This document shows, in pieces, positions 23,001 to 57,170 of a stretch of 64,000 nt of DNA. Source of the stretch: Arenicola marina. Taxonomy: Eukaryota; Annelida; Polychaeta; Arenicolidae. The first letter of the stretch is position 1; every line of letters starts with the position of its first letter. Below the pieces are notes generated by a model. It ran no database searches and was not told the origin of the DNA. It worked only from the letters and a program-made list of their open reading frames with translations. The position numbers were made by a program, and so were the translations under genes. The stretch lies in the NCBI GenBank assembly GCA_964019135.1, contig OZ025252.1, positions 10,122,823 through 10,186,822 on the forward strand, in the 5' to 3' direction.

Positions 23001-26000
23001 ATGTAGCCGGGTTAAGTTTCTGTGGAGTGAGTCGGCCTGCCAGAGAGAGACGTGTAGTGGTGTGAGATGTAGACGGGTTAAGTTTCTGTGGAGTGAGTCG
23101 GCCTGCTAGAGAGACGTGTAGTGGTGTGAGATGTAGACGGGTTAAGTTTCTGTGGAGTGAGTCGGCCTGATAGAGAGACGTGTAGTGGTGTGAGATGTAG
23201 ACGGGTTAAGTTTCTGTGGAGTGAATCGGCCTGATAGAGAGACGTGTAGTGGTGTGAGATGTAGACGGGTTAAGTTTCTGTGGAGTGAGTCGGCCTGCCA
23301 GAGAGACGTGTAGTGGTGTGAGATGTAGACGGGTTAAGTTTCTGTGGAGTGAGTCGGCCTGATAGAGAGACGTGTAGTGGTGTGAGATGTAGACGGGTTA
23401 AGTTTCTGTGGAGTGAGTCGGCCTGCTAGAGAGACGTGTAGTGGTGTGAGATGTAGCCGGGTTAAGTTTCTGTGGAGTGAGTCGGCCTGATAGAGAGACG
23501 TGTAGTGGTGTGAGATGTAGACGGGTTAAGTTTCTGTGGAGTGAGTCGGCCTGCTAGAGAGACGTGTAGTGGTGTGAGATGTAGCCGGGTTAAGTTTCTG
23601 TGGAGTGAGTCGGCCTGATAGAGAGACGTGTAGTGGTGTGAGATGTAGACGGGTTAAGTTTCTGTGGAGTGAGCCGGCCTGCCAGAGAGACGTGTAGTGG
23701 TGTGAGATGTAGCCGGGTTAAGTTTCTGTGGAGTGAGTCGGCCTGCCAGAGAGACGTGTAGTGGTGTGAGATGTAGCCGGGTTAAGTTTCTGTGGAGTGA
23801 GCCGGCCTGCCAGAGAGACGTGTAGTGGTGTGAGATGTAGACGGGTTAAGTTTCTGTGGAGTGAGTCGGCCTGCCAGAGAGATGTGTAGTGGTGTGAGAT
23901 GTAGACGGGTTAAGTTTCTGTGGAGTGAGTCGGCCTGCCAGAGAGACGTGTAGTGGTGTGAGATGTAGACGGGTTAAGTTTCTGTGGAGTGAGTCGGCCT
24001 GCTAGAGAGACGTGTAGTGGTGTGAGATGTAGACGGGTTAAGTTTCTGTGGAGTGAGTTGGCCTGCTAGAGAGACGTGTAGTGGTGTGAGATGTAGACGG
24101 GTTAAGTTTCTGTGGAGTGAGTCGGCCTGATAGAGAGACGTGTAGTGGTGTGAGATGTAGACGGGTTAAGTTTCTGTGGAGTGAGTCGGCCTGCTAGAGA
24201 CGCGTGTAGTGGTGTGAGATGTAGACGGGTTAAGTTTCTGTGGAGTGAGTCGGCCTGCTAGAGAGACGTGTAGTGGTGTGAGATGTAGACGGGTTAAGTT
24301 TCTGTGGAGTGAGTCGGCCTGATAGAGAGACTTGTAGTGGTGTGAGATGTAGCCGGGTTAAGTTTCTGTGGAGTGAGTCGGCCTGCCAGAGAGACGTGTA
24401 GTGATGTGAGATGTAGACGGGTTAAGTTTCTGTGGAGTGAGTCGGCCTGCCAGAGAGACGTGTAGTGGTGTGAGATGTAGACTGGTTAAGTTTCTGTGGA
24501 GTGAGTCGGCCTGCTAGAGAGACGTGTAGTGGTGTGAGATGTAGACGGGTTAAGTTTCTGTGGAGTGAGTCGGCCTGATAGAGAGACGTGTAGTGGTGTG
24601 AGATGTAGACGGGTTAAGTTTCTGTGGAGTGAGTCGGCCTGCCAGAGAGACGTGTAGTGGTGTGAGATGTAGACGGGTTAAGTTTCTGTGGAGTGAGTCG
24701 GCCTGCCAGAGAGACGTGTAGTGGTGTGAGATGTAGCCGGGTTAAGTTTCTGTGGAGTGAGTCGGCCTGCCAGAGAGACGTGTAGTGGTGTGAGATGTAG
24801 ACTGGTTAAGTTTCTGTGGAGTGAGTCGGCCTGCTAGAGAGACGTGTAGTGGTGTGAGATGTAGACTGGTTAAGTTTCTGTGGAGTGAGTCGGCCTGCTA
24901 GAGAGACGTGTAGTGGTGTGAGATGTAGACGGGTTAAGTTTCTGTGGAGTGAGTCGGCCTGCTAGAGAGACGTGTAGTGGTGTGAAATGTAGACAGGTTA
25001 AGTTTCTGTGGAGTGAGTCGGCCTGCCAGAGAGATGTGTAGTGGTGTGAGATGTAGCCGGGTTAAGTTTCTGTGGAGTGAGTCGGCCTGCCAGAGAGACG
25101 TGTAGTGGTGTGAGATGTAGACGGGTTAAGTTTCTGTGGAGTGAGTCGGCCTGCCAGAGAGACGTGTAGTGGTGTGAGATGTAGACGGGTTAAGTTTCTG
25201 TGGAGTGAGTCGGCCTGCCAGAGAGACGTGTAGTGGTGTGAGATGTAGCCGGGTTAAGTTTCTGTGGAGTGAGTCGGCCTGCCAGAGAGACGTGTAGTGG
25301 TGTGAGATGTAGACGGGTTAAGTTTCTGTGGAGTGAGTCGGCCTGCCAGAGAGACGTGTAGTGGTGTGAGATGTTGACGGGTTAAGTTTCTGTGGAGTGA
25401 GTCGGCCTGCCAGAGAGACGTGTAGTGGTGTGAGATGTAGACGGGTTAAGTTTCTGTGGAGTGAGTCGGCCTGCCAGAGAGACGTGTAGTGGTGTGAGAT
25501 GTAGCCGGGTTAAGTTTCTGTGGAGTGAGCCGGCCTACCAGAGAGACGTGTAGTGGTGTGAGATGTAGCCGGGTTAAGTTTCTGTGGAGTGAGCCGGCCT
25601 GCCAGAGAGACGTGTAGTGGTGTGAGATGTAGACGGGTTAAGTTTCTGTGGAGTGAGTCGGCCTGATAGAGAGACGTGTAGTGGTGTGAGATGTAGACGG
25701 GTTAAGTTTCTGTGGAGTGAGTCGGCCTGCCAGAGAGACGTGTAGTGGTGTGAGATGTAGCCGGGTTAAGTTTCTGTGGAGTGAGCCGGCCTGCCAGAGA
25801 GACGTGTAGTGGTGTGAGATGTAGACGGGTTAAGTTTCTGTGGAGTGAGTCGGCCTGCTAGAGAGACGTGTAGTGGTGTGAGATGTAGACAGGTTAAGTT
25901 TCTGTGGAGTGAGTCGGCCTGCTAGAGAGACGTGTAGTGGTGTGAGATGTAGCCGGGTTAAGTTTCTGTGGAGTGAGTCGGCCTGATAGAGAGACGTGTA

Positions 26001-29000
26001 GTGGTGTGAGATGTAGACGGGTTAAGTTTCTGTGGAGTGAGTCGGCCTGCTAGAGAGACGTGTAGTGGTGTGAGATGTAGCCGGGTTAAGTTTCTGTGGA
26101 GTGAGTCGGCCTGATAGAGAGACGTGTAGTGGTGTGAGATGTAGACGGGTTAAGTTTCTGTGGAGTGAGCCGGCCTGCTAGAGAGACGTGTTGTGGTGTG
26201 AGATGTAGCCGGGTTAAGTTTCTGTGGAGTGAGTCGGCCTGCCAGAGAGACGTGTAGTGGTGTGAGATGTAGCCGGGTTAAGTTTCTGTGGAATGAGCCG
26301 GCCTGCCAGAGAGACGTGTAGTGGTGTGAGATGTAGACGGGTTAAGTTTCTGTGGAGTGAGTCGGCCTGCCAGAGAGATGTGTAGTGGTGTGAGATGTAG
26401 CCGGGTTAAGTTTCTGTGGAGTGAGTCGGCCTGCCAGAGAGACGTGTAGTGGTGTGAGATGTAGACGGGTTAAGTTTCTGTGGAGTGAGTCGGCCTGCTA
26501 GAGAGACGTGTAGTGGTGTGAGATGTAGACGGGTTAAGTTTCTGTGGAGTGAGTCGGCCTGCTAGAGAGACGTGTAGTGGTGTGAGATGTAGACGGGTTA
26601 AGTTTCTGTGGAGTGAGTCGGCCTGATAGAGAGACGTGTAGTGGTGTGAGATGTAGACGGGTTAAGTTTCTGTGGAGTGAGTCGGCCTGCTAGAGAGACG
26701 TGTAGTGGTGTGAGATGTAGACGGGTTAAGTTTCTGTGGAGTGAGTCGGCCTGCTAGAGAGACGTGTAGTGGTGTGAGATGTAGACGGGTTAAGTTTCTG
26801 TGGAGTGAGTCGGCCTGATAGAGAGACGTGTAGTGGTGTGAGATGTAGACGGGTTAAGTTTCTGTGGAGTGAGCCGGCCTGCCAGAGAGACGTGTAGTGG
26901 TGTGAGATGTAGCCGGGTTAAGTTTCTGTGGAGTGAGTCGGCCTGATAGAGAGACGTGTAGTGGTGTGAGATGTAGACGGGTTAAGTTTCTGTGGAGTGA
27001 GTCGGCCTGCTAGAGAGACGTGTAGTGGTGTGAGATGTAGACGGGTTAAGTTTCTGTGGAGTGAGTCGGCCTGATAGAGAGACGTGTAGTGGTGTGAGAT
27101 GTAGACGGGTTAAGTTTCTGTGGAGTGAGTCGGCCTGCCAGAGAGACGTGTAGTGGTGTGAGATGTAGACGGGTTAAGTTTCTGTGGAGTGAGTCGGCCT
27201 GCTAGAGAGACGTGTAGTGGTGTGAGATGTAGACGGGTTAAGTTTCTGTGGAGTGAGTCGGCCTGATAGAGAGACTTGTAGTGGTGTGAGATGTAGCCGG
27301 GTTAAGTTTCTGTGGAGTGAGTCGGCCTGCCAGAGAGACGTGTAGTGATGTGAGATGTAGACGGGTTAAGTTTCTGTGGAGTGAGTCGGCCTGATAGAGA
27401 GACGTGTAGTGGTGTGAGATGTAGACGGGTTAAGTTTCTGTGGAGTGAGTCGGCCTGCCAGAGAGACGTGTAGTGGTGTGAGATGTAGCCGGGTTAAGTT
27501 TCTGTGGAGTGAGTCGGCCTGCCAGAGAGACGTGTAGTGGTGTGAGATGTAGCCGGGTTAAGTTTCTGTGGAGTGAGTCGGCCTGCCAGAGAGACGTGTA
27601 GTGGTGTGAGATGTAGACGGGTTAAGTTTCTGTGGAGTGAGCCGGCCTGCTAGAGAGACGTGTAGTGGTGTGAGATGTAGACGGGTTAAGTTTCTTTGGA
27701 GTGAGCCGGCCTGCCAGAGAGACGTGTAGTGGTGTGAGATGTAGCCGGGTTAAGTTTCTGTGGAGTGAGTCGGCCTGATAGAGAGACGTGTAGTGGTGTG
27801 AGATGTAGACGGGTTAAGTTTCTGTGGAGTGAGTCGGCCTGCTAGAGAGATGTGTAGTGGTGTGAGATGTAGACGGGTTAAGTTTCTGTGGAGTGAGTCG
27901 GCCTGCTAGAGAGACGTGTAGTGGTGTGAGATGTAGACGGGTTAAGTTTCTGTGGAGTGAGTCGGCCTGATAGAGAGACTTGTAGTGGTGTGAGATGTAG
28001 CCGGGTTAAGTTTCTGTGGAGTGAGTCGGCCTGCCAGAGAGACGTGTAGTGATGTGAGATGTAGACGGGTTAAGTTTCTGTGGAGTGAGTCGGCCTGATA
28101 GAGAGACGTGTAGTGGTGTGAGATGTAGACGGGTTAAGTTTCTGTGGAGTGAGTCGGCCTGCCAGAGAGACGTGTAGTGGTGTGAGATGTAGCCGGGTTA
28201 AGTTTCTGTGGAGTGAGTCGGCCTGCCAGAGAGACGTGTAGTGGTGTGAGATGTAGCCGGGTTAAGTTTCTGTGGAGTGAGTCGGCCTGCCAGAGAGACG
28301 TGTAGTGGTGTGAGATGTAGACGGGTTAAGTTTCTGTGGAGTGAGCCGGCCTGCTAGAGAGACGTGTAGTGGTGTGAGATGTAGACGGGTTAAGTTTCTT
28401 TGGAGTGAGCCGGCCTGCCAGAGAGACGTGTAGTGGTGTGAGATGTAGACGGGTTAAGTTTCTGTGGAGTGAGTCGGCCTGCCAGAGAGACGTGTAGTGG
28501 TGTGAGATGTAGACGGGTTAAGTTTCTGTGGAGTGAGTCAGCCTGCCAGAGAGACGTGTAGTGGTGTGAGATGTAGACGGGTTAAGTTTCTGTGGAGTGA
28601 GTCGGCCTGCCAGAGAGACGTGTAGTGGTGTGAGATGTAGCCGGGTTAAGTTTCTGTGGAGTGAGTCGGCCTGCCAGAGAGACGTGTAGTGGTGTGAGAT
28701 GTAGCCGGGTTAAGTTTCTGTGGAGTGAGTCGGCCTGCCAGAGAGACGTGTAGTGGTGTGAGATGTAGACGGGTTAAGTTTCTGTGGAGTGAGTCAGCCT
28801 GCCAGAGAGACGTGTAGTGGTGTGAGATGTAGACGGGTTAAGTTTCTGTGGAGTGAGTCGGCCTGCCAGAGAGACGTGTAGTGGTGTGAGATGTAGCCGG
28901 GTTAAGTTTCTGTGGAGTGAGTCGGCCTGCCAGAGAGACGTGTAGTGGTGTGAGATGTAGACGGGTTAAGTTTCTGTGGAGTGAGTCGGCCTGCCAGAGA

Positions 29001-31130
29001 GACGTGTAGTGGAGTGAGATGTAGACGGGTTAAGTTTCTGTGGAGTGAGTCGGCCTGCCAGAGAGACGTGTAGTGGTGTGAGATGTAGACGGGTTAAGTT
29101 TCTGTGGAGTGAGTCGGCCTGCCAGAGAGACGTGTAGTGGTGTGAGATGTAGCCGGGTTAAGTTTCTGTGGAGTGAGCCGGCCTGCCAGAGAGACGTGTA
29201 GTGGTGTGAGATGTAGCCGGGTTAAGTTTCTGTGGAGTGAGCCGGCCTGCCAGAGAGACGTGTAGTGGTGTGAGATGTAGACGGGTTAAGTTTCTGTGGA
29301 GTGAGTCGGCCTGCCAGAGAGACGTGTAGTGGTGTGAGATGTAGACAGGTTAAGTTTCTGTGGAGTGAGTCGGCCTGCCAGAGAGACGTGTAGTGGTGTG
29401 AGATGTAGACAGGTTAAGTTTCTGTGGAGTGAGTCGGCCTGCCAGAGAGACGTGTAGTAGTGTGAGATGTAGCCGGGTTAAGTTTCTGTGGAGTGAGTCG
29501 GCCTGCCAGAGAGACGTGTAGTGGTGTGAGATGTAGCCGGGTTAAGTTTCTGTGGAGTGAGCCGGCCTGCCAGAGAGACGTATAGTGGTGTGAGATGTAG
29601 CCGGGTTAAGTTTCTGTGGAGTGAGTCGGCCTGCCAGAGAGACGTGTAGTGGTGTGAGATGTAGCCGGGTTAAGTTTCTGTGGAGTGAGCCGGCCTGCCA
29701 GAGAGACGTGTAGTGGTGTGAGATGTAGCCGGGTTAAGTTTCTGTGGAGTGAGCCGGCCTGCCAGAGAGACGTGTAGTGGTGTGAGATGTAGCCGGGTTA
29801 AGTTTCTGTGGAGTGAGTCGGCCTGCTAGAGAGACGTGTAGTGGTGTGAGATGTAGACGGGTTAAGTTTCTGTGGAGTGAGTCGGCCTGCTAGAGAGACG
29901 TGTAGTGGTGTGAGATGTAGCCCTGTTAAGTTTCTGTGGAGTGAGTCGGCCTGCTAGAGAGACGTGTAGTGGTGTGAGATGTAGCCGGGTTAAGTTTCTG
30001 TGGAGTGAGCCGGCCTGCCAGAGAGACGTGTAGTGGTGTGAGATGTAGACGGGTTAAGTTTCTGTGGAGTGAGTCGGCCTGCCAGAGAGACGTGTAGTGG
30101 TGTGAGATGTAGCCGGGTTAAGTTTCTGTGGAGTGAGTCGGCCTGCTAGAGAGACGTGTAGTGGTGTGAGATGTAGACGGGTTAAGTTTCTGTGGAGTGA
30201 GTCGGCCTGCTAGAGAGACGTGTAGTGGTGTGAGATGTAGCCGGGTTAAGTTTCTGTGGAGTGAGTCGGCCTGCTAGAGAGACGTGTAGTGGTGTGAGAT
30301 GTAGCCGGGTTAAGTTTCTGGGGAGTGAGTCGGCCTGCCAGAGAGACGTGTAGTGGTGTGAGATGTAGCCGGGTTAAGTTTCTGTGGAGTGAGTCGGCCT
30401 GCCAGAGAGACGTGTAGTGGTGTGAGATGTAGACGGGTTAAGTTTCTGTGGAGTGAGTCGGCCTGCCAGAGAGACGTGTAGTGGTGTGAGATGTAGACAG
30501 GTGACTGACGCGGTGTGTGTCTCTCTGCCCAGGACCCAGCCACTTACCTACGCCACGAGCCGCCCGTGGAGCTGGAGGGCGTGTCTGCTGCCGTAGCCAG
30601 CGACTACGTCAAGCGGCCATTCGTCTTCCGCCTCAAGCTGCCCAACGGCGGGGAGTTCCTCTTCCACTGCAAAGATGAGGTACGTACACTAACCGTCACC
30701 TGTGTGCAGGCAATCTGCTCGCTTTGGCATTGATTTCTGTACGTCAGTAGGTCTTACTGAACGAGATTAATCAGTAAACAGTGGCTCCAATGTGCATGTG
30801 ACGCAACTAAAAGCATCGGTCGTCTGAATTTGTTGGTTTTGATTAATAATGACCATGAATACTTGATGTAGATAATGTGATGCAGGCCTGTATGTGTGAT
30901 GGCGAAGTGCTGCCGCTGGTGCCGTGTAACGTGGAGTTCAGTATGAGTGACGCCCGCTGTGTGTTTGTGTGTGTTTACAGGAGGAGATGACTACCTGGAA
31001 CAGCAAGATCAACGAGGTGACTGGCGGCGGCGATGTGGGCTCGCCGTCCCGCGCCCAGACCCTGCCGTCAGGCGCCGACAAACCCGCCGACAAGAAACGC
31101 AGCTTCTTCACCCTGGGCAAGAAGAAGTAG
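1859..31130 (+). CDS. beta-spectrin, 3' half (repeats 9-17 and PH domain), 23 exons
   Basis: Beta-spectrin is the long actin-crosslinking subunit of the membrane skeleton. It pairs with alpha-spectrin and is tied to membranes by ankyrin and by its PH domain. The 23 exons listed separately join without a phase break into about 1,186 residues ending at TAG 31128-31130. Triple-helical repeats follow at about 105 residues. Their starts are near residues 79 (repeat 10), 182, 291, 398, 503 (repeat 14), 607 (repeat 15), 716 (repeat 16) and 818 (partial repeat 17). Repeats 14-15 are the ankyrin-binding pair of the family, and repeat 17 forms the tetramer site with alpha-spectrin. Residues about 884-1030 are a charged linker, residues 1036-1150 are the PH domain, and the end reads FFTLGKKK, like the vertebrate tail. 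Closest remembered match is vertebrate SPTBN1 (about 2,360 residues), so the window holds roughly half. Calponin-homology domains and repeats 1-8 lie outside. Confidence 0.96.
2313..2403 (+). CDS. beta-spectrin exon 2 (repeat 9/10 boundary)
   Basis: Acceptor TTGTTGTAG, donor GAG|GTACTA. It completes the split Arg codon and encodes [10 protein letters not shown], the first helix of repeat 10. Confidence 0.93.
2620..2766 (+). CDS. beta-spectrin exon 3 (repeat 10)
   Basis: Acceptor TTGCCTTAG, donor CAG|GTCGGT, phase 0 at both ends. It encodes [17 protein letters not shown] and [14 protein letters not shown], the conserved Trp helix and middle of repeat 10. Confidence 0.95.
3027..3587 (+). CDS. 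beta-spectrin exon 4 (repeats 10-12)
   Basis: The largest exon here, 561 nt, phase 0-0, acceptor GGCTGCAG, donor CAG|GTAGGT. It covers the end of repeat 10, all of repeat 11 ([14 protein letters not shown]) and the start of repeat 12 ([13 protein letters not shown]). Confidence 0.96.
3896..4117 (+). CDS. beta-spectrin exon 5 (repeat 12)
   Basis: 222 nt, phase 0-0, acceptor CCGTTACAG, donor CAG|GTCAGT. It encodes [18 protein letters not shown] through [11 protein letters not shown], the rest of repeat 12. Confidence 0.95.
4464..4672 (+). CDS. beta-spectrin exon 6 (repeat 13)
   Basis: Acceptor GTTGCCAG; donor AG|GTACTC in phase 2. It starts [20 protein letters not shown], a stretch nearly identical to vertebrate SPTBN1 repeat 13. 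Confidence 0.96.
4970..5174 (+). CDS. beta-spectrin exon 7 (repeats 13-14)
   Basis: Acceptor GGTTGCAG, donor ACC|GTGAGT. It encodes [16 protein letters not shown] and the strongly conserved [18 protein letters not shown] of ankyrin-binding repeat 14. Confidence 0.97.
5434..5697 (+). CDS. beta-spectrin exon 8 (repeats 14-15, ankyrin-binding)
   Basis: 264 nt, phase 0-0, acceptor CCGTCAG, donor AAT|GTAAGG. It encodes [36 protein letters not shown] and [13 protein letters not shown]. In the family this is the repeat 14-15 junction that docks ankyrin ZU5. Confidence 0.97.
6014..6124 (+). CDS. beta-spectrin exon 9 (repeat 15)
   Basis: 111 nt, phase 0-0, acceptor GACCTCTAG, donor CAG|GTAAGA. It encodes [19 protein letters not shown] and [10 protein letters not shown] 65-bp tandem array starts only about 15 bp after its donor. 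Confidence 0.95.
6139..8000 (+). repeat. 65-bp minisatellite, about 28 copies
   Basis: A tandem unit beginning TGTACCCCATAGCGGTAACT fills nearly all of the intron between exons 9 and 10. Copies differ at a few fixed positions (GTAATATT/GTTATATT, CCGGCAC/CCGCCAC/CCACCAC, GAAGAAAC/GAAGAGAC). The 62-codon open frames on the - strand at 65-bp spacing are products of the repeat. Confidence 0.97.
8148..8392 (+). CDS. beta-spectrin exon 10 (repeats 15-16)
   Basis: Acceptor GTTGTGCAG; donor CG|GTCAGT in phase 2. It encodes [20 protein letters not shown] and [15 protein letters not shown], the end of repeat 15 and start of repeat 16. Confidence 0.96.
8458..8661 (+). repeat. 29-31-bp array copying the exon 11 acceptor
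   Basis: Six tandem copies of GGGACGTGTCTGGTGATATC plus TGTGTGTTGTA run directly into exon 11, whose first bases are the same GGACGTGTCTGG. Copies ending in GTAG at 8481, 8510, 8599 and 8630 repeat the real junction TTGTAG|GGACGTG at 8661. Two copies have lost the AG. Confidence 0.93.
8662..8800 (+). CDS. beta-spectrin exon 11 (repeat 16)
   Basis: The start is fixed by phase: CG|G GAC GTG continues [16 protein letters not shown], matching SPTBN1. It also encodes [19 protein letters not shown]. Donor GAG|GTACGG. Confidence 0.95.
8917..9658 (+). repeat. 44-bp minisatellite, about 17 copies
   Basis: The unit contains GTGTGCTGTATGGTGTGGAC followed by TGGAGTAAGCACTATAAGTG. AAGCAC and AGGCAC variants alternate in blocks, and one unit near 9131 lacks its GTGGTATGT part. 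It lies in the intron between exons 11 and 12 and stops about 25 bp before exon 12. Confidence 0.96.
9684..9768 (+). CDS. beta-spectrin exon 12 (end of repeat 16)
   Basis: Acceptor GGCTGCAG; donor A|GTGAGT in phase 1. It encodes [16 protein letters not shown] and [10 protein letters not shown]. Confidence 0.93.
9789..9985 (+). repeat. 32-35-bp GC-rich minisatellite, about 6 copies
   Basis: The unit is GGCCTTCAGCGGCGGCAATG TCCCTTGGCCRT, with an extra GGC in some copies. It begins about 20 bp after the donor of exon 12. The overlapping open frames are repeat artefacts. Confidence 0.9.
10379..10470 (+). CDS. beta-spectrin exon 13 (repeat 17)
   Basis: Acceptor GTGTTCCAG completes the split Ile codon; donor GGG|GTAAGT. 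It encodes [17 protein letters not shown], the start of partial repeat 17. Confidence 0.95.
10471..10866 (+). other. intron 13, nothing else seen
   Basis: Ordinary AT-rich intron with a clear acceptor (GGACTTGCAG). No repeat or open frame of note. Confidence 0.7.
10867..10971 (+). CDS. beta-spectrin exon 14 (repeat 17)
   Basis: 105 nt, phase 0-0, acceptor ACTTGCAG, donor ACT|GTAAGT. It encodes [20 protein letters not shown] and SALERLTT, conserved in the tetramerisation end of beta-spectrins. Confidence 0.96.
11250..11441 (+). repeat. 34-bp minisatellite, about 5.6 copies
   Basis: The unit is GGGACACTGTTGCTAAGAAG AGGTTTGTAGTGAA. It ends about 20 bp before the acceptor of exon 15. Confidence 0.93.
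11463..11593 (+). CDS. beta-spectrin exon 15 (linker)
   Basis: Acceptor GTGTTCAG; donor GA|GTACGT in phase 2. It encodes a charged stretch ([20 protein letters not shown]) and [12 protein letters not shown], the start of the linker before the PH domain. Confidence 0.93.
11594..12078 (+). other. intron 15 with short direct repeats
   Basis: It contains two copies of AAAAGCGGTTGTTGGACGAG at about 11660-11710, and five copies of GGTGAGTTGGGACTC at 11965-12060 just before the acceptor GTTGTAG. Confidence 0.8.
12079..12197 (+). CDS. beta-spectrin exon 16 (Pro/Glu linker)
   Basis: It encodes a (Pro-Glu) run, [20 protein letters not shown], then [19 protein letters not shown]. Donor G|GTAGGC in phase 1. 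The composition is that of a flexible linker, not a spectrin repeat. Confidence 0.9.
12198..12899 (+). other. intron 16, nothing recognised
   Basis: About 700 bp without repeats or a convincing coding segment. Confidence 0.6.
12900..12956 (+). CDS. beta-spectrin exon 17 (57-nt phase 1-1 linker exon)
   Basis: It encodes [18 protein letters not shown]. The acceptor (GTTGTAAG) has a poor pyrimidine tract, and the donor is G|GTAGTG. Both ends are in phase 1, so skipping keeps the frame. The small size and weak acceptor suggest a cassette exon. Confidence 0.75.
12957..13929 (+). other. intron 17 with 60-bp repeats
   Basis: At 13256-13510 a unit of about 60 bp (CCATATCCAAGCTCAGAATA ATAAACTGGGTGTTTTTTCC) occurs about four times, the last copy degenerate. 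The rest is plain intron. Confidence 0.85.
13930..13986 (+). CDS. beta-spectrin exon 18 (57-nt phase 1-1 linker exon)
   Basis: Acceptor TCTGTGTAG, donor A|GTAAGT. It encodes [19 protein letters not shown]. It is a symmetric phase 1-1 exon of the same length as exon 17. Confidence 0.82.
13987..14820 (+). other. intron 18 with two poly-C tracts
   Basis: It contains two C-rich tracts at about 14064-14082 and 14103-14120 in a short repeated context (CACCCCGC). Nothing else is recognised. Confidence 0.7.
14821..14898 (+). CDS. beta-spectrin exon 19 (basic 78-nt phase 1-1 linker exon)
   Basis: Acceptor CCGCTCACAG, donor G|GTAAAT. It encodes [18 protein letters not shown] then EAAELPQ, a basic Ser/Lys/Arg-rich stretch with several possible phosphorylation sites just ahead of the PH domain. 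Symmetric phase 1-1. Confidence 0.85.
14899..16542 (+). other. long intron 19, mostly featureless
   Basis: No spectrin-like exon was found. Open frames at 15278-15592 (-) and 15919-16149 (+) have no recognisable family. Confidence 0.55.
16543..16803 (+). repeat. 20-bp minisatellite, about 13 copies
   Basis: The unit is CTCGCGCTCCCCCAGTATGA with single-base variants. It sits about 100 bp upstream of exon 20. The 103-197 codon open frames on the - strand here exist because 20 bp is not a multiple of 3 and no phase of the unit has a stop. Confidence 0.95.
16904..17000 (+). CDS. beta-spectrin exon 20 (start of PH domain)
   Basis: Acceptor GACGTTGCAG, donor AG|GTCTCG. It encodes [17 protein letters not shown] and TTKKASNR, matching the first strand and basic loop of the beta-spectrin PH domain. 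Those Lys/Arg residues contact phosphoinositides in this family. Confidence 0.96.
17150..17225 (+). CDS. beta-spectrin exon 21 (PH domain)
   Basis: Acceptor TATCCTACAG, donor CAG|GTGAGA. It encodes [20 protein letters not shown], the second to fourth strands of the PH domain. Confidence 0.96.
17365..30503 (+). repeat. 13.1-kb satellite-like array, 64-bp unit, about 205 copies
   Basis: The unit begins GGGTTAAGTTTCTGTGGAGT and continues GAGTCGGCCTGCCAGAGAGA CGTGTAGTGGTGTGAGATGTAGAC. It fills nearly all of the intron between exons 21 and 22, inside the PH coding region. Variants are few (CC/AC before GGG; CTGCC/CTGCT/CTGAT; rare 66-bp units with an extra GA). Larger duplications are visible: about 1.5 kb from 20270 recurs near-identically 1,798 bp later, and a segment near 27691 recurs 704 bp (11 units) later. 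The two 70-codon open frames at 20841 and 22639 are copies of the same repeat artefact. Confidence 0.98.
30533..30679 (+). CDS. beta-spectrin exon 22 (PH domain)
   Basis: Acceptor CTCTGCCCAG, donor GAG|GTACGT, phase 0-0. It encodes [20 protein letters not shown] then FHCKDE, the C-terminal strands of the PH domain. Confidence 0.96.
30981..31130 (+). CDS. beta-spectrin last exon (PH helix and tail)
   Basis: Acceptor GTGTTTACAG. It encodes [13 protein letters not shown], the closing alpha helix with its conserved Trp, then a Ser/Pro linker and a basic tail ([13 protein letters not shown]) before TAG. Confidence 0.97.
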   Translation, partial: EEMTTWNSKINEVTGGGDVGSPSRAQTLPSGADKPADKKRSFFTLGKKK

Positions 31131-34344: not shown

Positions 34345-34890
34345 CGCCGCCATATAGAGGCGGTGGTCGCTGGACCGGTTTCTACAACCTCTGTCGCCAA
34401 ACAGGCGGGGGTCGCTGGACCGGTTTCTACAACCTCTCTCGCCAAACAGAGGCGGTGGTCGCTGGACCGGTTTCTACAACCTCTGTCGCCAAATAGAGAC
34501 GGGGGTCGCTGGACCGGTTTCTACAACCTCTCTGTGGCGTCAGGACATCGCCCAACAGAGGCGGGGGTCGCTGGACCGGTTTCTACAACCTCTCTGTGGC
34601 GTCAGGACATCGCCCAACAGAGGCGGGGGTCGCTGGACCGGTTTCTACAACCTCTCTCGCCAAACAGAGGCGGGGGTCGCTGGACCGGTTTCTACAACCT
34701 CTCTCGCCAAACAGAGGCGGGGGTCGCTGGACCGGTTTCTACAACCTCTGTAACCGGGTTCTACAACCTCAGGACATCGCCCAACAGAGGCGGTGGTCGC
34801 TGGACTGGTTTCTACAACCTTTCTGTGGCGTGAGGACGCCGCCAAACGGAGGCGGTGGTCGGTGGACCGGTTTCTACAACCTCAGACCCC
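34345..34890 (+). repeat. GC-rich minisatellite of mixed 46-68-bp units, about 11 copies
   Basis: The core GTCGCTGGACCGGTTTCTAC AACCTCT recurs with spacers CGCCAAACAGAGGCGGGG or a longer GGCGTCAGGACATCGCCCAA form. Three-phase open frames across it (34363-34940) are artefacts of the repeat. Confidence 0.92.
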
Positions 34891-35517: not shown

Positions 35518-35808
35518 TTATGGGCCTGAAGAATGAGGTCGGGTGGCCCCGCTGTGGCTACCGTACCTGGGTGGCTGATGGTGCTGCTGCTGTAGTGTAG
35601 GCGGCTTGAGCGTGGCCCCGGCGGGCGGGTCGCGACAGGCGGCGGGGTCCGACTGGCTTGTCAAGGCCTCTTTTAGCAGCGGGGGCGGGGCCGTGGTCGT
35701 GCCGCCGGGGCAGCCGGCCGGCGGGTCCGTCCCCCCATTGGCCGCAGTCTGGCAGGGCTGCGAGGACTGGCTGCTGGAGTCTTCCTCCTTCGGGTTCTCG
35801 ACCCCCAT
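35518..35808 (-). CDS. RCOR last exon (Pro/Gly/Ser/Gln-rich tail)
   Basis: Acceptor CTGCTTACAG, phase 0. It encodes [20 protein letters not shown] through [20 protein letters not shown] and ends SGP before TAA at 35518-35520. The tail is low complexity. An internal AG|GTACGG near 35574 could serve as a donor, so the exact C-terminus is less sure than the domains. Confidence 0.75.
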   Translation of the reverse strand: MGVENPKEEDSSSQSSQPCQTAANGGTDPPAGCPGGTTTAPPPLLKEALTSQSDPAACRDPPAGATLKPPTLQQQHHQPPRYGSHSGATRPHSSGP

Positions 35809-38800
35809 CTGTAAGCAGAGCGCGGGACATCCAGTCGCTGACACAAGACACAGCCGGGCACACTAGCACGACACCAACCGGCACAGCAGCCGAACCCAGA
35901 CACCCGCACCGGTTACCCTGGCAGCCGTCAGCCATTGGGTGGCGGGCCATCCCCACGTTTATTCCCTAATTATTTATCTAACGATTTCATGACATAAAAA
36001 CTTGATTTTCTTCATATGTCAAATTACATTAAGAATTTAGAATTTGATTGGTCAATCAAGATTTTGTTCTTGTATTTTTCTCCTTCCACACTTGGCAAGC
36101 ACACAAGACCAACTAATAAAGTACATGTAGTTCCCCATCTTCGGTTTATGTTTTCTCCATTTCCAACGTAATCCCCCTATCGCCCTTGGCGTTCTGGCAG
36201 CCGCCAGCCCATTCTAAACCCACCTCCTCCTTGTCGCCCTTGGCGTTCTGGCAGCCGCCAGCCCATTCTAAACCCACCTCCTCCTTGTCGCCCTGGGCGT
36301 TCTGCCAGCCGCCAGCCCATTCTTAACCCACCTCCTCCTCGTCGCCCTTGGCGTTCTGGCAGCCGTCAGCCCATTCTAAACCCACCTCCTGCTCGTCGCC
36401 CTTGGCGTTCTGGCAGCCGTCAGCCCATTCTTAACCCACCTCCTCCTCGTCGCCCTTGGCGTTCTGCCAGCCGTCAGCCCATTCTTAACCCACCTCCTCC
36501 TCGTCGCCCTTGGCGTTCTGGCAGCCGTCAGCCCATTCTTAACCCACCTCCTCCTCGTCGCCCTTGGCGTTCTGGCAGCCGTCAGCCCATTCTTAACCCA
36601 CCTCCTCCTCGTCACCCTTGGCGTTCTGGCAGCCGCCAGCCCATTCTAAACCCACCTCCTCCTCGTCGCCCTTGGCGTTCTGGCAGCCGTCAGCCCATTC
36701 TTAACCCACCTCCTCCTCGTCGCCCTTGGCGTTCTGCCAGCCGTCAGCCCATTCTAAACCCACCTCCTCCTCGTCGCCCTTGGCGTTCTGGCAGCCATAT
36801 TCCTGTTGATACTCTTGCAGCACTTCATCGAGGTTGTAGCGGCGCCTGTAGTTGACGAAGAAGCCGCGCACATGCGCCTCTGTTTTGTTACCGATAACCT
36901 CCGCGATTGCCGTGAAGTTCTTGCCATAGCGTCGTACACCTACAAGCAGGACACACATGTATTGACACCCCATGGATCCTTCAGTCCTTCCCAACCACAT
37001 CATGCTAACAAAGTATCAAATATAGTAAAACTACACGCCGTACACATATCGTCTTTCACGAAGCGTCGTACCTCTGATTGAGATCATAAATGAGGTTTAT
37101 ACATGTGAACATGTGCGAACGAAGGACTAGGCTCGAGCGTCGGCGGGAAATCACCTTGTACCGCCAGCAGCAGCTCTTCATTGGTCCACCGCGCGTTGAT
37201 TCGCAGACTGGCCTGAACGTAATAGAAACAGTATAGCCCGGTCACACACACAGGGAGGCACACGATACCAAACAGTATAGCCCGGTCACACACACACAGG
37301 GAGGCACACGATAGCAAACATGTACAATGTATATTTCGTATAGATCATAACAAGTTTCTCTTTAATGGGGCCCCCAGTTGTACACCTGTGTGTAACCTCC
37401 ACGTAATGTCGGTTCATCCGTGGACCACGGGAGGACCAGATCGTAAGCACGGACATCATGATGAAATACCCAAACCGAGCATCACACATTTTCATATTCC
37501 ATAAATGATACTGGCTCATAAACGTTCAGGGTGTATAGAGTTTCACCTAACTTAGAACCTTGGTCTGCAGACCCCACGAAAGCAAAATTCAACGCCATTC
37601 ACTTCAACCTTTGTCTGCATATCCCAATGAGTCACAGTCCCTCTAGACCTATAAGCCTACACTGCCCCTTAACTACAGTGCACAATACCCCTAGACAGTG
37701 TACACTGTCTATAGACTCTTGTCTATAGTCTATAGACAGTGTACACTGACCCTTCAGTTACACTGCCCCAAAATTTATTTCAGTTACTTTGCCCCTAGCC
37801 CAGTGTACACTACACCAGACACCACTTACATTGTCGGTCAGTGTACACAGTTACATTGCGTGTCAGTGTACACTGTCCTCATACGACAAGTGTAATACTT
37901 ACATCCGGGTTCCTCCAGCTGTCAATGCCCGATACGGTCTTCTGTTTGTGCATGCTGATGAGCTGTTTGTTATTCTGAACCTAAAATGTAAAAATATATA
38001 TGTTTAAAAACGAGATGTGAAAAGCATTATTCATCACAGGAGCTCAAAAACAATCTGCATGGATTGTGGCCCATCCATATGTATGAAAGCTCAGTTATAC
38101 ATGCCACCGTCGGACAGTTATGTGTGTTTGAAACAACTTGTTTCCGGTGTATTGCTAGTGACAGGTGACACTGAAGTAATCTCTAACTGTAAACGAAAGA
38201 CCTTTTACTTCCTTATACGGTTCCCCTCACTACATGGCGGCTGGTGAAGATACAGTAATGGAGTCATACGAGAACTATATTTCGCGAAGTGAGCTCCTGG
38301 CAGCAAGCCATCGCCGTATGGCCGCCGTCCGATCCATCTACTACAATGATGTACACAAAAATCGTGACAACGCGCCAATCAAAAGAAAGGTGTTCACCGC
38401 ATAGCTGCATATATCTAGCTTGCGTCCGTCCCACCACCCACCGTAGCCTTCAGGCGGACTGATCGTTCAATGTTTAGAGCAATTCCGACATTCTTTTTCG
38501 AAAAGTGACTACGGTCGTGTAGAGACCGACCAACCACCAAGCCGCTGACCTGTCGCTTGAGTGAGACGAGCTCGGCATCGAGTTGTTTGAGAATGGCTTC
38601 AGCCTGGCCGGGCGGTCCGCTCAGCACGGCCACAAGGTCGTCACTGTTGAGGAACATGCCACGTGGCGGCCGACGCTTGTTCTTTAACCGCGCATGGCTG
38701 TCCGGCTTCTTGGCGCCCAGACTGGTGCGTAGCGAGTTCTTAGACTCCTCCCTCTGTTCACCAACAATTAAATACATATATATACATATATCTATATATT

Positions 38801-45620: not shown

Positions 45621-46546
45621 GCTACTAGAAAAAAACGATCGAATACCAGTGATATCCTAATGCACTGCAACCTACTGGAAGTAGCAGTATACCTTTTAGG
45701 GACGTTTATTCGACTTATTCTCCTCTCCACACGCGTTCTGTTTCCCAGTGCCCCAGGACATACAACCGACTTCACATCGTTACGCGGTAAAACATAGAAC
45801 TACACTGTAGCGACGTGTCAAACTACTGCGTGTAAAGTGCCATCATAGATCGCAGAATTAAAACCATAAAGAATTAGCAAAACTAATTATACGAGACATG
45901 ATTTGTTTCTCACAAAAGAAACCAAATAAATTGACTTTCACAAATACGCGGATGGATACAATATTAAAGCCGTAGAACTAATTTTGAAAGTTGGTTTCGT
46001 TGACTGCGAATAAACTCTCTCGTCATATCCACGGACAAATGTTCTTGGATATTCTTTTTGTACATTTTGTTTGGTCATCACATTGTTACATGTACTTTCT
46101 CCAGGTTTGCCTACGCAGTTGTCTACAAGTTGTGTCCACGAATTTTAAACCTTACACGGGGAAAGACATAAAGGATCACAAAGGCCAGGTCCGGGAATTT
46201 TGACTGTTCATTTGAGGCCACCGTACATCCACTCCGCTGTCTTTATCTATTGTAACACTTCATCTCATGTTGTGCCTCAAGACGATGCCACAATGACAAA
46301 GACGATTCACTGCTTACCACGTTGTTCTTATTAAGTTAAGCACATAAAGACTTCACGTAAAATAATGCGACAAGTCGCGAATGAGTTTTCAATTTGACTG
46401 ATAATAGGTGTTTCACTTAAAGGACGCTATACTATCAAACGCTGGCGAGACCAAACTCCACCGCATAGTGGCGCTCCCAGCACTTTTATCCCCGATCTCC
46501 CGACAGAGGGCGTTACGCTTGAGCCATCTCTGTCCCACGTCAAATA
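45621..46546. other. region upstream of RCOR (promoter side)
   Basis: Expected to hold the RCOR promoter and any 5' UTR exon. I see no TATA box at a fixed distance or other site that I can defend. Confidence 0.4.
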
Positions 46547-49500
46547 GGGCTATAAAGTCTCGTTCGATTAGACTTCCGGTTTACTCATTTTGGGGACAAA
46601 CAAACGAAGCACGTGTTCGGAACGAGTTTAGAATCTCTGCGCACACTGGTATCCTGACTATCTGTGACGTAGGCGTGACGTGTATGTTACGCAAAGAGAG
46701 AGACTGGGAACCAGACTACCTGCGCAAAAGCCAGGCGCCGAGGGGTGGGTCCACTGCGGAAAGCCTAGCGCAATGATTAAGAATATTTAAGAAATATAGC
46801 TTCACAAAACGGATAGATGACATATTTTTTATTCGTTTACGCCATCACAGTGACGAATATTTGTTATGACGGGACAATACGACTGAGAAACTAACGTTTT
46901 TTTGCATTTCCTACGAAAACGAGGCATTATGACGTCACACAGATTCTCCCTGGTGACAACGTTGGCGCAACGCTTCAAACAGAAAACTTAAAAAATGAAG
47001 AAACTTGGTCTTTTCGTGATCCAAAAATGATACGAAAACATCCAACTGGTCTTATTTTATCTTTACCATGTTTTTTAATGACGCACCCGTGTGTTGTTAC
47101 TCCATGCACTGCACATTTTGACAGCGGAATGGTTAAGTCGCTCACTTCCTCTCGCCATTTTTGTTACCGCGGAGGCACGCGAAACTCTGTGACGTCACTC
47201 TCTGTTTGGTGAACTTGCGAAAGCCCGGGTGCAGGGCTAAATTTAGAACGTTATTTTTAGCTTTCGAGTGTTTTGAAGACGGATTTTTCCTTGTATATTC
47301 CCAAAGTTCTGCGCTTCATCGCCTCCAGATATTTTAACGTATATCTCCCATAGCCATGTTTAGTGAAATGGTACTCATAGTCTTTAGAATAAACCTGGAA
47401 AGAAATTGACTTCCAGCTGCCTATGCTTCAACATGGAGCACGTGTGTTTGTTTGTCCCCAAAACTGAAGTCTCGCGGCCCGATCGCGAGAACTGTATAGC
47501 CCTATTTAAGCATCAGAATTATCCTTCATGCGCGAAAATTGAAATTAATCTAATCAAAGATAAATTCGCAGTTTGGCGTTAAATACACCACTGTTTAGCA
47601 TTTACTGTCCCACTGGTACCATACCTGACAAATACATTTGATTTTGATTCTGTTCAGTTTGCAGAACGGGATCTGAAGAGTCCATCCGGATCTTAGGGGT
47701 CAAATTGGGATACTAGGGATCGAATCCGGATCCAAGAGGTCCATCTGGATCAATGTGGATCCTAAGTGTCAAATCGGGATCCTAAGGGTCAAATCAGGAT
47801 CAGTAAGGTCAATCGGGATACTAGGAGTCGAACACAGATTCTAAGGGTCAAATTCAGATTCTAGGTGTTCAATCCGGATCTGCGTCAGGTGAAATTTCTC
47901 ACGATCGGGCCGCGAGACTTCAGTTTTGGGGACAAACAAACACACGTGCTCTATGTTGAAGTATAGGCAGCTATAAGTCAATTTCTTTCCAGGTTTATTC
48001 TAAAGACTATGAGTACCATTTACCTAAACATGGTTATGGGAGATATACGTTTGTTAGAACCCAAACCGTCATAGTGACCAAAACGTCATACCTTGGTAGA
48101 ATGAAATATAGTTTAAAGTTTAATTTGAACCATCCCGGTTATCGCTCACACAACCCTGCGTGGCGTTTCTGAAGGAGACAGGGCGGGGCCACTCGGGGCT
48201 AAAGGTTTGATTGATTGACAATTAGAGACCTCTTGGAGGCCGAAATTTGCGAATTAAGGCGCAGGAAAATAAGGAAATCTAAGGTTTCTTAGAATAGAAG
48301 GTTCCAAGGGATGGACCCGGAGGAAGGGGGCGGGGGCGCTACCCATATTCCATCTTTTATGAAAGCACTTAAATATATCTGAAACTGAAGAGTTACTAAA
48401 TCGGAGGGTGGGGGGGCAGTGGATGAGGTAGGGGGGGGGGGCGTGAACAGGGGAGGGGAGGAAGGGTGATGTGCATAGGTGGGGGGGGGGCGTGAACAGG
48501 GGAGGGGAGGAAGGGTGATGTGCATAGGTGGGGGGGGGGGAGTTGCCATTCACGCGCCAGGTGGCGATGGGAGACCGCCGCGCATTCGCGCCGGCAAAAG
48601 CGTTACCCCCAAGAAGCGTTACCCCCAAGGAAAGTTACATCAAACCGTGCCCCTTCCTACTACTCTCGTGGGTCACATTGCCTTCCCGTGGGTCACATTG
48701 CCTTCCCGTGGGTCACATTGCCTTCCCGTAGGTCACATTACCTTCTCGTGGATCACATTGCTTTCCGTCGGTCATATTGCTTTCTCGTGGGTCACATTGG
48801 CTTCTCGTGGGTCACATTGCGTTAAAGAAAATGCCCATGTATGTACGAGGCGCAAGTGGAGATGATATCTTGTCAATAATGAGTAGTTCCTCCTGCCGGT
48901 CAATGATACTTTACCGACTGCACCAACCTGGACTACTTCCTCCTGCCGGTCAATGATACTTCACCGACTGTACCAACCTGGAGTAGTTCTTCCTGCAGGT
49001 CAATGATACTTCACCGACTGCACTGCCTCATATATTCATAGCCCCCGTCAACAGACACTGCGATCGAGGCACAGTGTGAAACTGTACATTTACTCCTAGA
49101 TGGCTCAGACCGTGTGATCTGACGTTTTCGTCACTATGACGTTTTGGGCCCTAACATACGTTAACATATTTGTAGGCGATGAAGCGCAGAACTTTGGGAA
49201 TATACAAGGAAAAAGCCGTCTTCAAAACACTCGAAAGCTAAAAATAACGTCCTAAATTTAGCCCTGCACCCGGGCGTTCGGAAGTTCCTCAAATAGCGAG
49301 TGACGTCACAGAGTTTCGCGTGCCTCCGCGGTAAGAAAAATGGCGAGAGCAAGTGATCGACTTAACCATTCCGCTGTCAAAATGTGCAGTGCATGGAGTA
49401 ACAACACACGGATGCGTCATTAAACCACATGGTATAGATAAAATAAGACCAGTTGGATGTTTCCGTATCACTTTTGGATCACGAAAAAACCAAGTTTCTT

Positions 49501-49952
49501 CATTTTTGTAAGTTTTCTGTTTGAAGCGTTGCGCCAACGTTGTCACCGGGGAGAATCCGTGTGACGTCATAATGCCTTGTGTTCGTACTAAATGCAAAAA
49601 AGCGTTAATTTCTCAGCCGTATTGTCCCGTCGTAACAAATATTCGTCATTGTGATGGCGCAAACGAATAAAAAATATGTTATCTCTCCGTTTTGTGAAGC
49701 TATATTTCTTAAATATTCTTAATCATATCGCTAGGTTTTCCGCAATAGACCCAGCCCTCGGCGCCTGGCTTTTGCGCAGGTAGTCTGGTTCCCAGTCTCT
49801 CTCTTTGCGTAACATACACGTCACGCCTACTTCACAGATAGTCAGGATACCAGGGTGAGCAGAGATTCTAAACTCGTTCCGAACACGTGCTTCGTTTGTT
49901 TGTCCCACAAATGAGTAAACCGGAAGTCTAAGCGAACGAGACTTTATAGCCC
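46547..49952. mobile_element. foldback-type transposon with arms of about 0.95 kb
   Basis: The left arm (46547 to about 47485) and the right arm (about 47902 to 49952, less a 1.1-kb insertion) are inverted copies starting GGGCTATAAAGTCTCGTTCG, flanked by TA. The middle (about 47486-47901) has degenerate repeats of GGATCCTAAGGGTCAAAT. No transposase is seen. The open frames in the arms are mirror images of each other and not genes. Confidence 0.9.
48053..49155. mobile_element. TIR element copy A inside the foldback arm
   Basis: Ends GTTAGAACCCAAACCGTCAT and, inverted, GTTAGGGCCCAAAACGTCAT, flanked by ATACGTTT and ATACGTTA (8-bp duplication, one mismatch). The opposite foldback arm shows the uninterrupted site (AACGTAT at about 47337). 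Compared with copy B it has about 600 bp of extra tandem repeats: a G-rich 60-bp unit (48400-48540), a 20-bp GTGGGTCACATTGCCTTCCC unit (48660-48825) and a 54-bp unit (48885-49021). Confidence 0.88.
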
Positions 49953-51754
49953 TATAACTCAGTCGATAGTGCATGTCGTCGTCGGTCTTTAAATGTTCCA
50001 GTTGGACGCTTGACGGTCTCTTTAAGTATGGCTCCATGGTATCGGGAGGGTGAAGGCCTCCCTATTTAATGGTTCCGGGATAGGCTGCTGTCCGATTTCC
50101 CATGGAATAAACAGGTCAACTGGTCTCCTCCCCCATGAAATGTGGATGAAGATAGAAGCATGAGTGTTGACATGTGTGAGTAGGCCTATTTCATGCTGGC
50201 GTCTGAAAGGAAAGAGCTGATGATCACTGATAACCTTCTTAATAGACACCCATAATATCCACTTTGTGCATACCGTCTTATTTTACATTTAAAGTCTTCC
50301 ACACGACGTCTGTATTTTAATTGATAAACGTAAATGAAAGATCCGTAAGAATTGCAATAATTCAATGTAAAATGAACGAACCCATTTATTGATAAACCAT
50401 GATTCCGCTAAGTTATAAAGTTGGATAAATAAAGGTCGGTTGCAATGAAGATGTTGCTCTCACATTTTATAATATTTAATAAAATTTAACGACGTATAGT
50501 CGCCTATACAATGGACTCCAACATGTTTGATATAAATCTGCTTTTCTTGGGGGATTGATCAGTCGTATACATCTCTCATTTACAATAACACGGTGCAAAT
50601 GACGGTGAGAATGTTTAATTAAAAATTCATTTACTTAAATATGCGTTTCGGTGTTTTCCCGTGAGCATGTCATTTTGGGCAAATTTTGACAATGCCGTTT
50701 CAAGTTAAGTCCTATATTTAAGGCAAAACATGCTACATATATGATGTCATGTCATTTATATTGAAAATGTACGTTACAAGGCTCCTAGCGCAGCTATATG
50801 CATCTAATTGTTCTCTGGCGTAATGCATTCCGTGTCCAGCATTGTAATGTCCGGTGTAGCATGATAATCTGTCCGGCGTGATTAAAGTTGCATGTCGAGT
50901 TGTTTCCCGACTAAGCCCAGGTGAAATTTATATCAAGATTTGCAGAAAACTCGATTGTTCCATTTCATAAATTCAGAAACCTGATAAACCTCGCCGTTTC
51001 GGCTGTGGTGTGGCAAACGTGTCTATCCCGCGACACCACAGGACTCTGTCGCGGCACTGCTACTTATAACAAAGCCTCGCGAAGCACACAAACTGATGAT
51101 GTTTACCACTGAAATGAAAATTTGTGGTAAGTTGATATCACGGGCAAGGCAAAGAGACACTATTTGGCAGTCTGGCATGGGTGGAGTATAGACAAAACCA
51201 ATCTTGAATGATTCAAGGACTGATTCTTATTTGTATTTTGACTTCTTTAGTTTTGGCGGGAAAGAGCTCCACATGCAACTTAAAGTGTCCGGGGGTCTAA
51301 TGCGCGTGCGCAGCGCATGCGCATCCGATGGAAATGCCGCGTGCTGTGATAACTTGTCCGGGTGTTATTCGTCATTAGGAACTCGCTGATTATGGTAGAG
51401 TGGAGAACATAAGCGTGGGTCTCGTGGTAAATGAAATGCCACGAGATCCACAATTATCAATAGGAAAATATCTATCCTGAGGGACAAAGTGACAATAAGA
51501 AGCGGTCCCTCGGGCGATGTTGTCTGGAAGATATCATTTGACTAACATAATTTAAATTGAAGCAATGAAGGGCCGCTGAGAAACGCGACTCACTAGGTCG
51601 AAACTGAGCTATACCTTAGTGTCAATAGTGATTTCATTTTTGTAAGGGTTTACTAGGCCTAATAACAGTGCCAGTAATGGTGTTTTATACGTAGCTAGGA
51701 TAATTCAGAAGGGTCTCTCATGGGCTAGCTTTACCTTAGCTTTGACAACAATAC
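49953..51754. other. intergenic, with one short dispersed repeat
   Basis: Apart from the repeat at 50033-50113 I see nothing supported. Open frames are under 80 codons and unrecognised. Confidence 0.6.
50033..50113. repeat. 81-bp dispersed repeat, copy 1
   Basis: Begins TCCATGGTATCGGGAGGGTG and ends GATTTCCCATGGAATAAACA. The ends are inverted around CCATGG. It recurs at 58050-58130 with one mismatch. Confidence 0.85.
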
Positions 51755-52570
51755 TGTAGAGAGATTTGATAGGGCTAGACGTAGGTTTCAGTGTTAATGG
51801 GAATAGCAGCAGTACGTAGAGCGGTGGTGGACGGCGGGGTCGAGCAGTGGGTGGGGGTCGACAAGTAGGTCGGGGTCAACCGGGGGGGTCACCGGGAGTG
51901 AGTGGCAGCAACAGGCGGACGCTCTCGGGAGAGGGTGGTGACAAGCCCCAAGGTTGGGGTGGTACCCCCAACTTAGCGAGGGGGTGAATCCTGGGTTGGG
52001 GTGGTACCCCCAACTTAGGGGAGGGGCGAGTCTCCGGGTTGGGGTGGTACCCCCAACTTAGCGAGGGGGTGAATCCCTGGGTTTGGGTGGTACCCCCAAC
52101 TTAGGGGAGGGGCGAGTCTCCGGGTTGGGGTGGTACCCCCAACTTAGCGAGGGGGTGAATCCTGGGTTGGGGTGGTACCCCCAACTTAGGGGAGGGGCGA
52201 GTCTCCGGGTTGGGGTGGTACCCCCAACTTAGCGAGGGGGTGAATCCCTGGGTTGGGGTGGTACCCCCAACTTGAGGGAGGGGTGAATCCCTGGGTTGGG
52301 GTGGTACCCCTAACTTAGGGGAGGGGAGAGGCCCCAAGTTGGGGTGGTACCCCCAACTTGAGGGAGGGGAGAGGACCCGATGTAAGGATGTATAAATAGA
52401 GGGGGACAGCGAGTAGAGGGAGAGCTAGGAAGGAGCGAGAACTAGAGCTAGGATTAGAACTAGAAAACCAGAGAGAAGATTGATACATGGAATATTTTAG
52501 CGAAATAAAACTCAGAAAAGGAACGACATGTATTGGAATTTACTGTGCGGCCCGGCGAAAGAACTTTACA
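51755..52570 (+). repeat. 5' LTR
   Basis: Contains about nine 41-45-bp units with the inverted core GTTGGGGTGGTACCCCCAAC (51951-52365), then a TATA-like TATAAATA at about 52391 and AATAAA at about 52503, giving the usual U3-R order. Confidence 0.92.
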
Positions 52571-56440: not shown

Positions 56441-57170
56441 TGTAGAGAGATTTGATAGGGCTAGACGTAGGTTTCAGTGTTAATGAGAATAGCAGCAGTA
56501 CGTAGAGCGGTGGTGGACGGCGGGGTCGAGCAATGGGTGGGGGTCGACAAGTAGGTCGGGGTCAACCGGGGGGGTCACCGGGAGTGAGTGGCAGCGACAG
56601 GCGGACGCTCTCGGGAGAGGGTGGTGACAAGCTCCAAGGTTGGGGTGGTACCCCCAACTTAGCGAGGGGGTGAATCCTGGGTTGGGGTGGTACCCCGAAC
56701 TTAGGGGAGGGGCGAGTCTCCGGGTTGGGGTGGTTCCCCCAACTTAGCGAGGGGGTGAATCCTGGGTTGGGGTGGTACCCCCAACTTAGGGGAGGGGCGA
56801 GTCTCCGGGTTGGGGTGGTACCCCCAACTTAGCGAGGGGGTGAATCCCTGGGTTGGGGTGGTACCCCCAACTTGGGGGAGGGGTGAATCCCTGGGTTGAG
56901 GTGGTACCCCCAACTTAGGGGAGGGGAGAGGCCCCAAGTTGGGATGGTACCCCCAACTTGAGGGAGGGGAGAGGACCCGATGTAAGGATGTATAAATAGA
57001 GGGGGACAGCGAGTAGAGGGAGAGCTAGGAAGGAGCGAGAACTTGAGCTAGGACTAGAACTAGAAAACCAGAGAGAAGATTGATACATGGAATATTTTAG
57101 CGAAATAAAATTCAGAAAAGAAACGACATGTGTTGGAATTTACTGTGTGGCCCGGCGAAAGAACTTTACA
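56441..57170 (+). repeat. 3' LTR
   Basis: Near-identical to the 5' LTR, with about two fewer copies of the inverted-core unit (56637-56965). Confidence 0.92.

Follow-up and report, generated by a model that had tools for sequence, protein, structure and literature searches.

The 3' end of an exon of the Arenicola marina RCOR gene has been multiplied, together with its splice donor, into a minisatellite that carries eleven identical donors. Very probably this array is a mirage, that is, a minisatellite across an exon-intron boundary that is tolerated in an ordinary gene and has not been selected as a switch. It looks like a fresh example of a known oddity previously described in lancelet genes. 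The analysis covers a window of 64,000 nucleotides, by which we mean the whole stretch of DNA examined, holding RCOR on the minus strand and part of a beta-spectrin gene on the plus strand; the exons of both genes are models based on the sequence.

The RCOR gene and its repeated splice donor

The RCOR model comprises 12 coding exons running from 45620 to 34950 in a single open frame of 499 residues, with consistent phases and splice sites. A 417-residue part model aligns by phmmer with residues 1-412 of REST corepressor 3 (4czz_B, E 2.4e-128), an alignment that includes the C-terminal PPPLIRP stretch. Pfam reports ELM2, REST_helical and Myb_DNA-binding (SANT; two stretches) on the 499-residue model, so the RCOR/CoREST domain set of ELM2, two SANT domains and the REST helical region is present. 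Coding exon 10 (36764-36939, minus strand) encodes the second half of SANT2 and is supported by its splice sites, the frame and the phmmer match to 4czz_B. It is joined in phase 0 to coding exon 11 (35567-35808). A sequence-only reading had taken exon 35808-35567 to be the last, but it has a donor of its own and is followed by another coding exon at 35049-34950. This exon 12 ends in ...PPPLIRPNNVPPTLPTLAK before the stop codon, as in REST corepressor 3. Intron 10 contains one AATAAA, at 35963, which would be a candidate signal for early polyadenylation. Separately, a 47-bp minisatellite occupies 34348-34749, 3' of the RCOR stop codon and perhaps within the 3' untranslated region or beyond it.

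The array spans the boundary of exon 10 and intron 10 on the minus strand (36180-36796). Tandem Repeats Finder (TRF) describes it as 11.4 head-to-tail copies of a 54-bp period with 96% matches and 0% indels, far more regular than chance would produce. Exon 10 ends with 33 bp that are identical to the unit consensus and diverges upstream of them; each unit thus consists of 33 exon-tail bases and 21 intronic bases. Eleven GAGGTGGGTT donors follow one another at 54-bp steps, with their first intron bases at 36763, 36709 and so on to 36223. All eleven are intact, and their 9-mers from -3 to +6 (GAG/GTGGGT) are identical. Unit 1 (36710-36763) is open in frame and ends before donor 2 at 36709, while unit 2 (36656-36709) carries an in-frame TAA (GTG GGT TAA) that would be read from all farther donors. 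Unit 11 (36180-36223) is the truncated end of the array and is followed by no further donor. The sequence-only reading had anticipated this layout, with about eleven donor copies, a unit made of some 30 terminal bases of the SANT2 exon plus its GT donor, and a stop in the second unit, and the TRF copy number, the exon match and the translation of the units agree with it.

The ten full units share a mean pairwise identity of 95.5% (range 91-100%) and carry distinct variant patterns. An amphioxus mirage is expected to have homogenised central units and divergent edge units; in the RCOR array, the variants at -18, -9 and +19 cluster at the distal end, with +19 present in unit 3 as well. A stray 18-base relic of the unit, with an exact 15-mer match (repeat family D2), lies elsewhere in intron 10 (35918-35935, minus strand); it lacks one base relative to the corresponding stretch of the unit and lies, start to start, 276 bp from the nearest copy. 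The exon tail can be aligned with the matching part of RCOR3 (GCQNAKGD versus GTQASNGD), and therefore the end of exon 10 is the likely source and the array the copy. The identity of exon tail and unit over 33 bp favours the mirage reading. One tandem duplication of the exon 3' end with its donor would have started such an array, which would then have grown by slippage or unequal exchange. Lying in the intron, it would mostly be spliced out from the first donor, and transcripts ending their exon at far donors would be discarded by decay.

That the array or its copy number arose by misassembly is highly improbable. Precedents exist: a draft genome is reported to have contained a misassembled amphioxus globin mirage, and two genome versions disagreed on the number of repeats in lancelet PGBD5 (PMC3902484). 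However, the RCOR units differ in their variant patterns, a second and unrelated boundary array is present in the next gene, beta-spectrin, and the available text of PMC3902484 has re-examined PGBD5 reads arguing against assembly error.

Donor strength and predicted products

On a matrix of the 31 modelled donors, whose median score is 7.82, the repeated donor reaches 8.05 if it does not itself contribute to the matrix and 8.76 if it does. The same 31 donors served both to build the matrix and as sites to be scored, and the scored site was left out only for modelled donors. Of the 4127 GT sites in both genes, 29 reach this score, and the eleven array donors are among these 29. The U1 duplex energy of the repeated donor is -9.5. 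Because this donor looks as good as the real ones, silent tolerance of the copies is not assured. Two further observations count against a silent mirage, namely a unit length divisible by 3 and an open unit 1.

With donor 1 as the exon end, the predicted protein has 499 aa. Donor 2, which gives an exon length of 230, is predicted to yield 517 aa by adding 18 residues in frame. The sequence-only reading had described this insertion as 18 acidic residues; the length and frame hold, but only 6 of the 18 are acidic. The remaining nine of the eleven donors (3-11) lead to one and the same predicted product of 406 aa, ending at the same TAA. The stop falls at nt 1218 and the last exon junction at nt 1508 or later, so that at least 290 nt lie between them. 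As a general rule, a stop that far upstream of the last junction triggers nonsense-mediated decay, and transcripts from donors 3-11 are predicted targets of it. Since these donors share one TAA and one product, lengthening the array past two units cannot alter the protein. The proposal that copy number decides the RCOR C-terminus is thus contradicted, and copy number may perhaps act only by diverting transcripts to decay. The related proposal, that the TTTAGAA or TTAAGAA state of each unit decides the C-terminus, survives in part: the TTA/TAA state of units 1 and 2 could affect it, but that of the units beyond could not. At most one small in-frame isoform, with 18 more residues, could be added.

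Regulated use of donor 2 in part of the transcripts, adding 18 residues after SANT2, is worth weighing as a switch between isoforms. Such a switch is possible from the sequence: donor 2 is identical to donor 1 and in frame, with its open unit 1 and an exon length of 230. We nevertheless consider it unlikely, as copies beyond two units do not enter the protein, regular splicing is reported for published mirages (PMC3087553, PMC3902484) and the array bears no sign of selection. On this last point, no excess of donor conservation was found in the array: 7 of 54 positions are variable in windows around the eleven donors and 0 within the donor 9-mer, a lack of variation that is no greater than chance would give (P = 0.26). 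TTA is open in 5 of the 11 units and TAA is present in 6, so that an open unit 1 is unremarkable, and no bias in the TTA/TAA state of the units is seen. The chance of a unit length divisible by 3 is one in three. Nothing here points to selection on the array. The lack of donor or TTA/TAA bias and the single prematurely terminated product of the distant donors both favour the mirage reading.

Alternatively, the extra donors might act as decoys that capture splicing, the products of donors 3-11 decaying and array length tuning the RCOR dose. The shared 406-aa product of 9/11 donors, with its stop 290 nt or more before the last junction, is what such a role would use, and the length of a human variable-number tandem repeat (VNTR) in MIR137HG correlates with alternative 5' splicing (PMC6692358). 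The published amphioxus mirages, however, seem silent in the available text of PMC3087553, and we hold this explanation to be quite improbable. It is likewise doubtful, though conceivable from the sequence, that eleven equal donors would compete, with donors 3-11 leading to decay and donor 2 to an 18-residue tail, and that a length-unstable array would vary the RCOR dose. If this were true and the array were length-unstable (perhaps somatically, as reported for Adh3), the dose of a chromatin co-repressor would differ between individuals or cells.

A predicted RNA fold of the array beats 20/20 shuffles (z -2.43) and was not accepted as structure, because tandem copies can pair mutually. Rfam gave 0 matches at the gathering threshold. 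Local alignment with 300 shuffles each brought out no core that the 54-bp unit shares with any of eight other array consensuses; the best candidate partner, a 64-bp unit, was equalled by 52 of 300 shuffles.

Tandem arrays at the splice junctions of both genes

The plus strand holds the C-terminal part of a beta-spectrin gene, modelled as 21 in-frame exons between 1859 and 31130. A 296-residue part of it matches spectrin beta chain 8iah_M best, and the model closes with a PH domain. An intron between two PH-domain exons is filled by a minisatellite 13 kb long (17365-30502), in which a 64-bp unit is repeated 205 times; 30 nt separate its end from the acceptor of the PH-domain exon that follows.

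This gene contains the second boundary array (8459-8673, plus strand). Here the acceptor TTGTAG and the exon start GGACGTGTCTG of model exon 11 (8662-8800, plus strand) are present in seven copies at steps of 29-31 bp, the seventh being the true acceptor. In contrast to the RCOR array, this array lies on the acceptor side, its unit is no multiple of 3 and the signal has been lost in part, the AG being missing in 2/7 copies. A boundary array with such a unit length and such losses of AG favours the mirage reading of the RCOR array.

A scan of the modelled junctions with 24 bases at 80% identity within 3 kb found near copies at only 2 of 62, the RCOR donor and the beta-spectrin acceptor; the control gave 9 of 2000 positions, from which arrays were excluded, so that the contrast is flattered. 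The 63 TRF rows in the window were merged by hand into 42 arrays, comprising 18 in introns of the two models, 1 exonic array (12080-12105) and 23 outside the models, which were not counted. Across the 18 intronic arrays, G excess on the sense strand is mixed and gives no clear lead to an R-loop origin. Two of the 18, at the RCOR donor and the beta-spectrin acceptor, cross a junction. Among the other 16, eight stop 30 nt or less from a splice site, against 2.2 expected if arrays were scattered at random within these introns (P about 1e-4 at this cut-off, which was set after the distances had been seen). One of the eight is the 64-bp array of beta-spectrin; seven further minisatellites stop 13-29 nt from modelled junctions (6141-8001, 8922-9657, 9791-9975, 11256-11445, 11962-12062, 37226-37320 and 37826-37873). 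The proximity has P = 0.04 at a cut-off of 20 nt, 0.02 at 25 nt, 0.004 at 50 nt and 0.01 at 100 nt, and a threshold-free Fisher combination gives P = 0.03; at 15 nt there is no excess of arrays at junctions (1/16, with 1.1 expected). A count of 8/9 arrays within 35 nt of a junction came from a model with fewer exons and is superseded. The eight of 16 arrays near junctions again favour the mirage reading, and arrays at or near junctions speak for a tendency of mutation rather than for selection on RCOR.

Relation to amphioxus mirages and other repeats

Minisatellite-like tandem duplications of exon-intron boundaries have been described at 5' and 3' boundaries of amphioxus globin genes (PMC3087553), where the name "mirages" is used after earlier work on Adh3. 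Examples are Adh3, the globins BflGb6 and BflGb9, PGBD5 and troponin C (PMC3087553, PMC3902484). The RCOR array resembles them in that tandem repeats span the boundary, reaching 33 bases into the exon, in its 54-bp unit, which falls within the published sizes of 10-72 and 150-160 bp (PMC3087553), and in repeats that carry the splice signal (11/11 donors intact). It differs from the mirages in the available accounts by its gene, its eleven intact donors, a unit that is a multiple of 3 and an open first unit. The Adh3 mirage has haplotypes with 6 and 3 units and shows somatic instability (PMC3087553).

According to the available text of PMC3087553, the Adh3 data and RT-PCR of globins suggest that mirages leave regular splicing undisturbed, and the repeats could serve as cryptic splice sites. 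PMC3902484 cites the Adh and troponin C mirages as giving no aberrant mRNAs. By analogy, the regular splicing reported for Adh3, the globins and other amphioxus mirages would favour the mirage reading for RCOR. Counting against a silent RCOR mirage, by the same kind of analogy, would be the lancelet PGBD5 gene, in which a gene prediction (not a transcript) places an exon inside similar repeats; its authors omit this exon (PMC3902484).

Two other systems share features with the array. In tandem-duplication intron gain, described for potato RdRp (PMC4974935), the duplication likewise crosses an intron-exon boundary and copies splice signals, whereas RCOR has a multi-copy array in one intron. The human MIR137HG VNTR (PMC6692358) is likewise located close to alternative 5' splice sites. 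Its donors are next to the repeat, in pre-miRNA sequence, and a correlation was measured, whereas in RCOR the donors are part of the repeat and an effect is no more than conceivable. No paper on an RCOR mirage was found among the open-licence literature matches listed. As to boundary repeats, the available text of PMC2206037, on amphioxus huntingtin, mentions only tandem repeat elements in scaffolds. PMC10721905, on RCOR evolution, does not contain the words 'Branchiostoma' or 'lancelet'; 'amphioxus' occurs a single time, within a reference.

The RCOR array offers a clean eleven-donor case of a poorly explained habit, the formation of minisatellites at or next to splice sites. With its eleven identical donors, a single transcript offers a natural test of how the spliceosome chooses among equal 5' splice sites, and also of whether arrays of this kind give rise to new introns. 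Were the copies in use, a co-repressor gene would be tuned by unstable repeats.

Other repeats are present in the window. Two inverted similar stretches (46408-47212 and 49292-50061) encode alike peptides (AIKSRSxRLPVYSF...) and are perhaps a dispersed repeat; the frame 46408-46773 on the plus strand has no Pfam match. At a threshold of 0.001, Pfam gave no match for six further frames, one of which is the spectrin exon 4970-5174 in the wrong frame. Two near-alike blocks about 4.7 kb apart (51835-52373 and 56521-56973) contain 18-bp and 43/86-bp repeats with the same consensus each, which suggests a segmental duplication.
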